NCBI GenBank assembly: GCA_015487695.1 | Contig: WFPF01000063.1 | Location: forward strand, 1 to 39,511 | Reading direction: 5' to 3' | Origin: Chitinophagales bacterium | GTDB lineage: Bacteria > Bacteroidota > Bacteroidia > Chitinophagales > S012-47 | Length of the DNA stretch: 39,511 nucleotides | Program-made: the position numbers and the translations under genes | The notes under the pieces: generated by a model | Told to the model about the DNA's origin: nothing | Seen by the model: the letters and a program-made list of their open reading frames with translations, nothing else | The model's database searches: none | In this document: one piece after another, positions 5,711-10,645 of the stretch | How the letters are laid out: every line of letters starts with the position of its first letter | How positions within the stretch are numbered: the first letter of the stretch is position 1

Positions 5711-5743
5711 TTTGGCGTTTCTATCCTTAAAGCACTATTTTTG
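5711..5743 (+). promoter_or_regulatory. Bacteroidota-type promoter for the BatA-domain gene
   Basis: TTTG at 5711-5714 and TATTTTTG at 5736-5743 are 21 bases apart, within the usual Bacteroidota -33/-7 spacing. The predicted transcription start falls at or next to the ATG at 5750, pointing to a leaderless transcript. It is divergent from the glycosyltransferase promoter box at 5632-5639. Confidence 0.5.
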
Positions 5744-5749
5744 CCAGCT

Positions 5750-7783
5750 ATGAAATTTATGCATCCCGAATTTTTATGGGCTCTTTTTGCCTTGTTGATT
5801 CCCCTCATTATTCACCTCTTCAGTTTTCGGAAATTTCGGGCCGTATATTTTTCAAATGTGAGATTCCTCAAAGAGGTCAAAGAGGAAAATGCCTCACGCT
5901 CTAAGCTTAAGCATCTTCTTGTTCTCCTTGCCCGTCTTCTTGCGATCTTTTTCCTGGTTCTTGCTTTTGCCCGTCCCTATCTGCCCGGAGAGGAGAATGA
6001 GGGAAGCCGGCAGGATTCGGCTGTGAGCATTTATGTCGACAATTCTTTCAGCATGGAGGCCAACGGAGAAGAGGTTTCGCTGCTTGATGAAGCCAAAGGA
6101 GCAGCCCTTCAGATTCTGGATGCCTACGGAGAAGACGATCGCTTTCAGCTGCTCAGCAACGACTTTGAAGGCCGGCATCAGCGCTTGTTAACGAAAGAAG
6201 AATTCAGAAATGAACTGCAGGAAGTGGAAATATCGCCCCGCGTAAAGACCCTGAAACAGGTGCTTGCCCGGCAGCGCGATGCCCTTCGGGATTTTGATGA
6301 CCCCGTCTATTTTATGATCTCCGACTTTCAAAAGAAGATCACAAATCTGCCGGAGGACAGTGGCCTGGCACTTTACCTGCTTCCGATGAAGGCCGTCAGG
6401 CAGCAGAATATTGCCATTGACAGTGCCTGGTTGCTGGCTCCCGTAAATCTCAAAGGACAGACAGCTACGCTTTTCGTTCGAATCAGAAACTACGGGGAAG
6501 ACCGGGTGGAAAGTGATCATGTGAGTGTATCGGTAAACGGAAGCCGGAAAGCACTCTCGGATTTCGAAATGGAAGCCGGTGCCAGCATCACCGATACCCT
6601 GACCTTTACCGTGCCGGAGAGCGGCTGGAACTCGGGCGTTATCGAGATCAGCGATTATCCGGTCACTTTTGACGACAAATACTATTTTACATTTTATGCC
6701 CCTTCCCGCATTCGCATCCTTTCTTTAAACCGGGAGGAAGAAGATCCTTATATCAATGGCCTGGCAGTGGCATCCTTTACGGAAGTGGTAAACAAGGCCA
6801 TCGGCCAGGTCGATTATTCGGAGTTTGACCGCTACAATCTTATCATTCTCAATCGTCTGGAAGGAATGAGCAGCGGCCTCGCTGCAGAATTGAGAAATTA
6901 TATCGAAAACGGGGGCAAGGTGCTTTTCTTTCCCTCCGGAAACATGGACCCCGGGCCGGTCAACGACTTTCTTGGCTCGGTGGGTGCCGACCCCTATGGC
7001 CCGCTCCGGGAGGAGGCAACAAGGGTGCGGCAGATCAATACCGGGTCGGGGCTCTATGCCAATGTATTTGAAGAAATACCGCGCAACATGCAATATCCGG
7101 AAGTAAAAAAATACTTCCGCATTTTGCGCCCGGCCTACTCGAAAGGGGAGGAACTGCTCATCCTCAAAAACAACGATCCGCTCCTGCTGCGCTATTCTTT
7201 TGGCAATGGTTCCCTCTTTCTTTCGGCTGTGGCTCCCGACCTTGAGTTTAGCAACTTTCCGCGCCACTCGCTTTTTGCCGTCACCCTGTTTCAGATTGCC
7301 ATCAGCGGGCGTGGCACCGAAGATCTGGCCTTTGTCATTGGCCGCCCCGGAGTGCTGACGGTACCGCGTCCGGCTGGTCCGGCCGGAGAAAGCCTTAAAC
7401 TGAAAAGCATCAGCGAAGAGGGCATCGACCTTTTTCCGCGCCAGCGTCTTCTCGGACGGAGGCTTCTATTGAATTTTGACTCGGAACTGGGCATCGACCG
7501 GGCGGGCATCTACGGACTTTATGAACCGGGCAACGATACGCTTCTGCGTCTGCTGGCCTTTAATTACGACCGCAGCGAGTCGGATATCAGCAGCTACAGC
7601 CCTGAGGAGCTGGCATCTCTCTATCCGCAGCAGGTGAGGTCGGTGCTCGAAGCAGGCGGCTCGCAACTGGCATTGCGCATTACGGAGATCAACCGCGGCC
7701 GCTCTCTCTGGCAGGCAAGCCTCCTTCTTGTCCTGCTTTTCCTTTTCATCGAAACACTCCTTCTGAGATTTTTGCCTAAATAA
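5750..7783 (+). CDS. BatA/VWA-domain membrane protein
   Basis: Membrane protein of 677 residues from the ATG at 5750; an upstream TTG lies inside the predicted promoter box and is unlikely to be used. The N-terminus is a classic BatA domain: 'HPEFLWALFALLIPLIIHLF' forms one membrane helix and a second follows near residues 55-75. A von Willebrand A-like region begins with 'VDNSFSM', which keeps the D-x-S-x-S metal-site pattern. The middle (about 325-400) resembles the class-I glutamine-amidotransferase-like fold seen in many of these proteins, with no catalytic Cys evident. A C-terminal helix near residues 650-672 returns to the membrane. Members of this Bacteroidota family are poorly characterised and are related to the Bat aerotolerance proteins. 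Here it is a single gene, not a bat operon. Confidence 0.82.
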   Translation: MKFMHPEFLWALFALLIPLIIHLFSFRKFRAVYFSNVRFLKEVKEENASRSKLKHLLVLLARLLAIFFLVLAFARPYLPGEENEGSRQDSAVSIYVDNSFSMEANGEEVSLLDEAKGAALQILDAYGEDDRFQLLSNDFEGRHQRLLTKEEFRNELQEVEISPRVKTLKQVLARQRDALRDFDDPVYFMISDFQKKITNLPEDSGLALYLLPMKAVRQQNIAIDSAWLLAPVNLKGQTATLFVRIRNYGEDRVESDHVSVSVNGSRKALSDFEMEAGASITDTLTFTVPESGWNSGVIEISDYPVTFDDKYYFTFYAPSRIRILSLNREEEDPYINGLAVASFTEVVNKAIGQVDYSEFDRYNLIILNRLEGMSSGLAAELRNYIENGGKVLFFPSGNMDPGPVNDFLGSVGADPYGPLREEATRVRQINTGSGLYANVFEEIPRNMQYPEVKKYFRILRPAYSKGEELLILKNNDPLLLRYSFGNGSLFLSAVAPDLEFSNFPRHSLFAVTLFQIAISGRGTEDLAFVIGRPGVLTVPRPAGPAGESLKLKSISEEGIDLFPRQRLLGRRLLLNFDSELGIDRAGIYGLYEPGNDTLLRLLAFNYDRSESDISSYSPEELASLYPQQVRSVLEAGGSQLALRITEINRGRSLWQASLLLVLLFLFIETLLLRFLPK

Positions 7784-7847: not shown

Positions 7848-9107
7848 ATGAAATATCTCATTCGATCTGCCCGCATCATGGATCCGGATTCGCCATTGCA
7901 CCGGAAAGTTCGGGATATTCTGATTGAAGGAAAGCACATCGCCAAAATCGGGCAAAACCTGGAAGCAGCGGGTGCCCGGGAAATTCAGTTCTCCAATCTT
8001 CATCTTTCTCCGGGTTGGTTTGACCTTTATGCCAATTTCTGCGAACCGGGCTACGAGCACCGGGAGGAGATACGTACCGGCCTGAATGCGGCCGCAGCAG
8101 GCGGATTTACGGGCGTCCTGATCCGTCCGGACACGAATCCGGCCCTGCACAGTAAAAGCGAAATAGAATTTGTAATTAACAAAGCCCGTGGGCATGCCGT
8201 CTCGCTGTATCCCATGGGTGCCCTCACACGCGACACGGCCGGAGCCGAATTGACGGAGATGATTGACCTGCACCATGCCGGTGCAGTCGCTTTCTCAAAT
8301 GGAGAGAAATGCCTTGAAAGCAACGGCTTGCTTCTCCGCTCGCTACAGTATGTACAGGCTTTTGACGGCATTCTGATTTACCGCCCCCTGATGAAAAAGC
8401 TGGCAGACGGGCCGGTTCACGAAAGCCGGATCAGTGCCATGCTGGGGATGAAAGGCAGCCCGGCCCTGGCCGAAGAACTTGCCGTCAATGAAGCCATCGA
8501 ACTGGCCCGCTACACGGGAGCCCGCATTCATCTTGTGAAAATATCCACGGCCGGCAGTGTTTCACTCATTCGTAAGGCCAAAAAAGAAGGACTGCGCATC
8601 ACGGCCTCCGTATCGGCCCATCATCTTTTGCTGGATGAAGCGTCTCTTCTCTCATTTGATGAGAATTACAAGGTTTCGCCTCCTCTTCGGGGAAAGAAAG
8701 ATGTAAAGGCACTGCGAAAGGCCCTGCTTGATGGAGTGATTGATGCCGTGGTCAGCGATCACGAGCCGCTCGATCCCGAGTCCAAGCAAAGGGAGTTTGA
8801 GTTTGCCGCCCCCGGAATGGCAGGTATTGAGACCTGCTTCCCGTTGGCACTGGCAGCCCTGCCCGGGCATATAGATTCACTGCTTGGCGCATTCATCCGC
8901 GGACCGAGGCAGGTGCTCGGAATGGAGCATCCCGCAATAGAAGAGGGAGCCGTTGCAGAGCTGACGCTCTTTGACCCGGAGCTGGAATGGGTGCCCTCCG
9001 AACATCCCAGGCACTCCAAAGCAATTAATCATCCTTTGCTCAATACCAGGCTGAAAGGAAAAACTTTAGCTATTTTTAGCCATGCGCAATATGTGTTAAG
9101 CGCATAG
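7848..9107 (+). CDS. dihydroorotase-like protein, probably non-catalytic
   Basis: Amidohydrolase-fold protein of 419 residues, collinear with type I dihydroorotase (pyrimidine synthesis, carbamoyl-aspartate to dihydroorotate). The family scaffold is clear: 'FCEPGYEHREEIRTG', 'AAAAGGFTGVLIRPDTNP', 'YKVSPPLRGKKDVKAL', 'APGMAGIETCFPLAL' and a C-terminal 'GAVAELTLFDPE'. By-eye alignment suggests the metal site is gone: the D-x-H-x-H motif is D59-L-Y61-A-N63, the bridging Asp of 'FSDDG' is Asn151, the 'HCED' His is Tyr178, and the His of 'HxxHxST' is Lys231. Only the final Asp (D304 in 'SDHEP') remains. Non-catalytic dihydroorotase partners that support aspartate transcarbamoylase assembly are known in Pseudomonas (PyrC'), and I recall similar paralogues in Bacteroidota. 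A scaffold role is therefore plausible but inferred; no other pyr gene is in the window. Confidence 0.78.
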   Translation: MKYLIRSARIMDPDSPLHRKVRDILIEGKHIAKIGQNLEAAGAREIQFSNLHLSPGWFDLYANFCEPGYEHREEIRTGLNAAAAGGFTGVLIRPDTNPALHSKSEIEFVINKARGHAVSLYPMGALTRDTAGAELTEMIDLHHAGAVAFSNGEKCLESNGLLLRSLQYVQAFDGILIYRPLMKKLADGPVHESRISAMLGMKGSPALAEELAVNEAIELARYTGARIHLVKISTAGSVSLIRKAKKEGLRITASVSAHHLLLDEASLLSFDENYKVSPPLRGKKDVKALRKALLDGVIDAVVSDHEPLDPESKQREFEFAAPGMAGIETCFPLALAALPGHIDSLLGAFIRGPRQVLGMEHPAIEEGAVAELTLFDPELEWVPSEHPRHSKAINHPLLNTRLKGKTLAIFSHAQYVLSA

Positions 9108-9152: not shown

Positions 9153-9695
9153 ATGGAAGAAATGGAAAATTACAATGAAGCCCCGGAGATTAAAGCAAGT
9201 GCTTTTAGTACAGCTCTTTATTATGGATTGATCGGAGGGGTAATTCTTTCCATCTGGTCGGTTATTGCATATATGACCAACCTACAGGAATCGGCAGGCT
9301 GGCTTAATACCATTGTCAGCATTGTCATATTTATTGCGGTTATTATGATGGCCACCAAAGCACATCGCGACAATAAGCTGGGCGGAGTTATGAGCTTTGG
9401 AAAAGGCTTTTCAGTGGGCTTTCTTACCGTTTTGATTATGGCAGCCATCGGAGCTGTATTTACGATTGTTTATTTGCAGTTTATTGATCCGGGTGTCATG
9501 CAGGAGGCCGAAAGACAGATGGAACAACAAATGGCTGAAAGGGATATGAGCAGGGAAGAAATGGAGCAGGCTTTGAAAGTCGGCAGGATGTTTATACAAC
9601 CCGGAGTGATGGCTTTAATGGGTTTTGTATTTAATTTGATTCTGGGAGCAGTGGTTTCACTTATCTCAGCAGCTATATACCAAAGACAAAGTTAA
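9153..9695 (+). CDS. DUF4199 family membrane protein
   Basis: Small integral membrane protein of 180 residues, matching the DUF4199 layout common in Bacteroidota. Four hydrophobic helices lie at about residues 22-45, 50-70, 85-110 and 148-175. Between helices 3 and 4 is a soluble, Met/Glu-rich segment ('ERQMEQQMAERDMSREEMEQ') that likely forms a helix. The function of the family is not established. The stop and the next gene's start share one base (TAATG), so it is translationally coupled to a membrane-associated GT2 enzyme. In Bacteroidota DUF4199 genes commonly sit next to this GT2 type, as I recall, which suggests an accessory role in lipid-linked sugar metabolism; that is inference. Confidence 0.8.
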   Translation: MEEMENYNEAPEIKASAFSTALYYGLIGGVILSIWSVIAYMTNLQESAGWLNTIVSIVIFIAVIMMATKAHRDNKLGGVMSFGKGFSVGFLTVLIMAAIGAVFTIVYLQFIDPGVMQEAERQMEQQMAERDMSREEMEQALKVGRMFIQPGVMALMGFVFNLILGAVVSLISAAIYQRQS

Positions 9696-10645
9696 TGAGC
9701 GTAGACATATCGGTGATCGTCCCTCTCTACAATGAGGAAGAGTCACTGCCGGAACTGATGGAATGGATTGACCGGGTCATGCAGCAACACGGCTACCGTT
9801 ATGAAGTCATTATGGTGGATGACGGCAGCAGCGACCGTTCGTGGCAGGTCGTCCGTGAGCTGGCTTCGAAGTATCCGCATCTGAAAGGCATTAAGTTCAG
9901 GCGCAACTACGGAAAAAGTGCGGCATTGAACGAAGGATTCAGGCATGCACGCGGCAAGGTGGTCATCACCATGGATGCCGACCTGCAGGACAGCCCTGAC
10001 GAAATTCCCGGGCTCTACCGGATGATCGTGGAGGAAGGCTACGACCTCGTGTCGGGCTGGAAGAAAAAACGCCACGATCCGCTTTCGAAAACCATTCCTT
10101 CGCGTTTCTTCAATAAGGTAACCCAACTGATGTCGGGCATTAAGCTGCACGATTTCAATTGCGGCCTCAAGGCCTATCGCAGCGAAGTGGTAAAAGCCAT
10201 TGAGGTTTATGGCGAGATGCATCGCTATATTCCGGTTATTTCAAAAAAAGCGGGTTTTGGGCGAATCGGGGAAAAAGTAGTCGAACACCGTGCCCGGAAA
10301 TACGGCACCACCAAGTTTGGCCTCGAACGCTTTCTCAATGGATTTCTCGACCTCCTTTCCATCTCTTTTATCAGCCGCTTTGGCAAGCGCCCCATGCATT
10401 TCTTCGGAGCCATGGGCACGCTGACCTTCTTCGTAGGATTTGTAATCCTGCTTTATCTCGTCATATTGAAATACCTGCAAAACGAAACGGGGATGACCGA
10501 GCGCCCCGTCTTTTATCTGGGCTTGCTCACCGTGGTCATCGGCACACAGCTTTTCCTTACGGGATTTGTGGCAGAACTCGTTTCGCGCAGTGCAGCCGAT
10601 AAAGACCGCTACCTGATCGAAGAGAGAATAGGAGACGATGAGTAA
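9695..10645 (+). CDS. GT2 glycosyltransferase, polyprenyl-phosphate sugar transferase type
   Basis: Membrane-anchored family 2 glycosyltransferase of 316 residues. The catalytic domain (1-225) shows 'VPLYNEEESLPEL', the nucleotide-sugar 'MVDDGSSDRS' and the metal-binding 'MDADLQDSPDEIP'. 'GLKAYR' and 'HRYIPVI' further on are typical of the DPM1/GtrB/ArnC-like branch that moves a sugar onto polyprenyl phosphate. Two C-terminal helices (about 230-257 and 268-292) match the usual anchor. It begins one base inside the DUF4199 stop and overlaps the following GT4 gene by eight bases, so it belongs to a tightly coupled operon. The sugar is unknown; mannose, glucose or an amino sugar are all possible. 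Confidence 0.88.
   Translation: MSVDISVIVPLYNEEESLPELMEWIDRVMQQHGYRYEVIMVDDGSSDRSWQVVRELASKYPHLKGIKFRRNYGKSAALNEGFRHARGKVVITMDADLQDSPDEIPGLYRMIVEEGYDLVSGWKKKRHDPLSKTIPSRFFNKVTQLMSGIKLHDFNCGLKAYRSEVVKAIEVYGEMHRYIPVISKKAGFGRIGEKVVEHRARKYGTTKFGLERFLNGFLDLLSISFISRFGKRPMHFFGAMGTLTFFVGFVILLYLVILKYLQNETGMTERPVFYLGLLTVVIGTQLFLTGFVAELVSRSAADKDRYLIEERIGDDE

Follow-up and report, generated by a model that had tools for sequence, protein, structure and literature searches.

The aspartate transcarbamoylase (ATCase) chain of Pseudomonas aeruginosa has no activity until it assembles with a pseudo-dihydroorotase into a dodecamer of 6+6 chains (PMC7053772). This partner, known as PyrC' or PyrX, is a full-length homolog of type I dihydroorotases (DHOs) without the metal site, occurs in organisms that also have a separate catalytic DHO, and represents class A2 (PMC7053772). 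A dead DHO is likewise associated with ATCase in fungi, there as a fused domain of a multifunctional, CAD-like eukaryotic protein (Ura2; Chaetomium, 5NNL) (PMC7053772). In the class A1 DHO-ATC complex of Aquifex aeolicus (3d6n, 4bjh; PMC3880350), by contrast with these dead forms, the DHO keeps all of its ligands and is active within the complex.

Here, we analyzed a window of 39,511 nucleotides from a Chitinophagales bacterium (GenBank assembly GCA_015487695.1, contig WFPF01000063.1) that encodes, at positions 7848..9107 of the + strand, a 419-aa protein sharing its fold and length with the Aquifex DHO, unlike which it lacks most of the metal ligands, and forming a gene of its own, unlike the fungal domain. 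By analogy with class A2, we propose that this pseudo-DHO (PyrC'-like) is very probably a catalytically dead partner subunit of the cell's PyrB. As in Pseudomonas, the partner would be PyrB, although the gene studied here differs from pyrC' in having no linkage to pyrB and the binding is predicted. Our literature search for a Bacteroidetes version of such a protein returned no paper, although one may exist.

A dihydroorotase scaffold with one metal ligand left

The open reading frame is undamaged and full length. Its product scored 295 bits against the NCBIfam model TIGR00857 (pyrC_multi, cut-off 279 bits), whereas a Pfam search gave no match, and in a search of PDB sequences it aligned with the Aquifex DHO 3d6n at 227 bits across residues 2-410, so that homology to type I DHOs spans the full length, as in class A2 pseudo-DHOs. 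The AlphaFold model (pLDDT 91.6) has its top PDB fold match in 3d6n_A, the ATC-bound Aquifex DHO (TM 0.94), a predicted resemblance that alone is no proof of ATC binding because Bacillus and Thermus DHOs match about equally. A previous reading of this DNA from the sequence alone had judged the type I scaffold intact, with which family model, Aquifex match, and fold comparison all agree; it also expected automated annotation to call the protein a dihydroorotase, and a relative from Rufibacter (WP_062546243.1) is indeed labelled plain "dihydroorotase."

The metal ligands of the Aquifex enzyme are H61, H63, D153, H180, H232, and D305 (PMC3880350). Aligned to it with phmmer and MAFFT, the window protein reads Y61, N63, G152, R179, K231, and D304 in these columns; five of the six ligands are lost (H61Y, H63N, D153G, H180R, and H232K in Aquifex numbering) and D305 alone is kept. 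The ligand set of a catalytic dihydroorotase (EC 3.5.2.3), comprising HxH, an Asp or carboxylated Lys, two His, and an Asp, is thus reduced to 1/6, and the catalytic-site residues R65, N95, and H309 of Aquifex read C65, D95, and L308. On the + strand, codons 61-65 (8028..8042) encode YANFC in place of HxHxR, with the loss of two metal ligands and the substrate Arg (ligand list from PMC3880350); codons N151-G152 (8298..8303) place G152 at Aquifex Asp153; R179 (8382..8384) and K231 (8538..8540) stand at Aquifex His180 and His232; and codons D304-H305 (8757..8762) hold the sole kept ligand, Aquifex Asp305, and the adjacent His, invariant in 135/135 orthologs.

The sequence-only reading had described nearly the whole metal site as lost, with Asp304 the only survivor, and this description stands, neither alignment nor fold comparison restoring any ligand. 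Its assignments of Tyr61, Asn63, Lys231, and Asp304 are correct; its Asn151 and Tyr178 are off by one, aligning with Aquifex D152 and D179 directly before the true ligand columns (G152 and R179), a slip that leaves the conclusion unchanged. An alignment that would bring the ligands back was also considered and found no support from phmmer, from MAFFT with 30-135 relatives, or from fold comparison.

A second dihydroorotase and co-inheritance with PyrB

A second pyrC, for which the same reading had proposed to search, is present: the genome encodes one other DHO (locus L002), of Porphyromonas type, which matches the Porphyromonas gingivalis dihydroorotase 2gwn at 510 bits and which we presume from its sequence to be the catalytic enzyme. 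The genome thereby holds a separate DHO, as class A2 genomes do. PyrC of this type occurs in 74/76 Bacteroidia versus 3/220 genomes of other classes. The P. gingivalis protein belongs to the same superfamily as the pseudo-DHO, yet shares only 21% identity with it in structural alignment; it is listed with two zincs, as a structure without a describing paper (PMC12524618). At the first metal ligand, L002 (L002:178-1608) reads QVHF instead of HxHF, Gln replacing the first His of HxH, and the same is true of 2gwn.

The window genome encodes one PyrB and no PyrI, again as expected for class A2. Of 76 Bacteroidia genomes with a completeness of 95% or more, 66 carry the pseudo-DHO together with a PyrB of the native clade, ten carry neither, and no genome has one without the other (0/0). 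In this presence/absence table native PyrB was scored at E <=1e-137 and the pseudo-DHO by profile E-value, the metal site being read directly in the aligned orthologs rather than for every genome. The associated Fisher p of 1e-12 treats related genomes as independent and so overstates independence; the effective support comes from about three separate replacements of PyrB, as the ten genomes without the pseudo-DHO fall into three lineages. In family f31, a distant PyrB (class B) is accompanied by PyrI, which stands in the place of the pseudo-DHO; in family f24, the PyrB joins the Bacillus class C PyrB at 100/100; and in family f29, one genome (G125) has a pyrB-pyrC pair of the type found on Hymenobacter plasmids, its DHO site intact, and another (G217) has no PyrB at all. 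The pattern says that the pseudo-DHO goes with native PyrB and is lost when PyrB is replaced by one that comes with a partner of its own or works without any.

With regard to G125, native PyrB, the pseudo-DHO, and the 2gwn-type PyrC are all absent alongside the plasmid-type pair (L240), and this mobile pair has apparently taken the place of its pyrimidine genes. The pyrB-"dihydroorotase" pairs of two Hymenobacter plasmids (L217 and L218) were considered as a possible link between pyrB and a pseudo-DHO and set aside, their intact DHO site marking them as foreign catalytic pairs.

At the level of the order, where 60 genomes were surveyed, some of them less complete, PyrI is absent from 60/60. 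Five of the 60 are mismatched: in four metagenome-assembled genomes (completeness 75-93%), native PyrB or a PyrB match occurs and no pseudo-DHO was detected, and one genome shows the reverse, a pseudo-DHO without PyrB; these cases may be assembly gaps. Five others have neither gene. Four nearly complete genomes of family f12, in the same order, show no PyrB over the cut-off and no pseudo-DHO, and are perhaps pyrimidine auxotrophs. Outside the class, nine genomes of family f44 have a diverged PyrB and, for type I DHO, no match above background.

Gene neighborhood

The pseudo-DHO gene is not adjacent to pyrB, which lies on another contig (C133 vs. C63), adjacency being a typical although non-defining feature of class A2. 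It is instead preceded, across a 64-bp gap, by a BatA-domain protein gene (5741..7783, +) that is probably outside its function, and followed by genes for a DUF4199 membrane protein (9153..9695, +) and a family 2 glycosyltransferase (GT2; 9695..10645, +), an order kept over much of the class. On this basis, one could suppose that the protein has left pyrimidine metabolism and acts in an envelope or glycosylation module with BatA, DUF4199, GT2, and GT4, the more so as a similar cluster sits on plasmid 2 of Rufibacter. We consider this improbable: at several loci no BatA, DUF4199, or glycosyltransferase gene was detected next to it (six of them, L113, L116, L118-L120, and L130, give no BatA match), and a glycosylation role does not predict that presence should track PyrB type exactly, including loss with each of three PyrB replacements. 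The Rufibacter tibetensis record itself (plasmid 2, 12.5 kb, circular) holds little besides the cluster of BatA-like, pseudo-DHO, DUF4199, and glycosyltransferase genes, and reflects either capture by a plasmid or an artifact of assembly.

Loss of the active site under selection on the scaffold

Across the class, the six-ligand site is complete in 0/135 full-length orthologs, the maximum of 4/6 being reached in two of them only, and as many as about a dozen different residues occur in one ligand column; among homologs from other classes of the phylum, the site is intact in 20/20. When the columns invariant in catalytic DHOs (n = 64) are compared, all nine that contact metal or substrate are lost in the pseudo-DHOs, versus 12 of the 55 others (Fisher p 1e-5), a loss which in these alignments is concentrated in the active site while the remainder is held. 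Relative to a copy from the same genus, the window gene shows a dN of 0.059 and a dS of 0.69 (dN/dS ~0.09). Because the degenerate state is common to 135 orthologs and comes with such values, chance or sequencing error is excluded as its cause. Since the ligands are variable, 43/55 of the other columns are kept, and dN/dS is low, we read the alignments as showing a metal site that has drifted while selection holds the scaffold; the gene is retained by selection in most sampled families of the class.

Some amidohydrolases function with an altered metal site, and this precedent leaves room for the idea that the protein is still, or has newly become, an enzyme that uses another active site for a new amidohydrolase-like or metal-free reaction. 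His305, His228, Glu192, Glu209, Lys275, and Arg281 are indeed invariant or nearly so. However, these conserved residues are mostly common to catalytic DHOs, and the pocket columns vary freely among orthologs, with no new conserved set there, so that we regard such an activity as highly improbable. As for a weakly constrained relic heading for loss, the unconstrained metal-site columns are what it would predict, but it is already contradicted by the selection measured between same-genus copies, by the gene's distribution (66/76 genomes), and by the retention of the other invariant columns, and we give it practically no credence.

A putative partner subunit of PyrB

Site loss, selection, the second DHO, and co-inheritance with native PyrB all favor a conserved nonenzymatic role on the model of Pseudomonas PyrC', which is what the first reading had put forward, and we thus return to the proposal of a dead subunit in a class A2-like ATCase. 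From these data and the described complexes, we infer PyrB binding, the form and stoichiometry of a dodecamer, an effect on ATCase activity, any regulation, and an order of events. The ancestor would have been a catalytic PyrC encoded next to pyrB. In Bacteroidia, the Porphyromonas-type PyrC, here L002, would then have taken over the dihydroorotase reaction, and as a result the subunit bound to PyrB may have been free to shed its metal ligands, with selection still acting on the scaffold. Dimers of the pseudo-DHO would most likely join two PyrB trimers into a dodecamer, as in Pseudomonas and Aquifex, and thereby might stabilize or regulate PyrB. A more specific version, which we find rather doubtful, would have a regulatory ATCase subunit, common to the whole class, born in Bacteroidota without any link to the proteobacterial PyrC' once the second DHO had assumed catalysis, its emptied pocket possibly sensing a nucleotide or other metabolite as a functional equivalent of PyrI.

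If the proposal of a dead PyrB partner holds, the committed step of pyrimidine synthesis would, in most of a major bacterial class, be carried out by a complex that includes a dead subunit, and a widespread misannotation as dihydroorotase would be corrected. It would also add one more lineage to those where an enzyme has turned scaffold, and suggest a plausible order of events, with the replacement enzyme first and the site loss afterward. The ATCase of Bacteroidia is in that case predicted to fail or to behave differently when expressed alone.

A probable origin within Bacteroidota

In a maximum-likelihood tree, the Bacteroidia clade (100/100) nests with the catalytic DHOs from other classes of the phylum (98/96), and this phylogeny supports descent of the pseudo-DHO from them; at 10/20 loci of these catalytic homologs, pyrB is adjacent and pyrR near. 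The tree took in degenerate alphaproteobacterial DHOs, which adjoin pyrB, and left out the Pseudomonas PyrC' sequence. The alphaproteobacterial PyrC' proteins fall on a different branch from the Bacteroidia clade, favoring separate origins; a single origin is disfavored by the tree, although not rejected by the AU test (p 0.15). The pseudo-DHO thus probably evolved inside Bacteroidota, separately from the PyrC' of proteobacteria. A metal-stripped type I DHO (L242, motif YRGFHD) also occurs in a different class of the phylum, in a genome (G149) whose PyrB is not of the Bacteroidia kind and which encodes a 2gwn-type PyrC as well; this DHO lies on a long branch outside the Bacteroidia clade and is possibly a second, parallel loss of the site.
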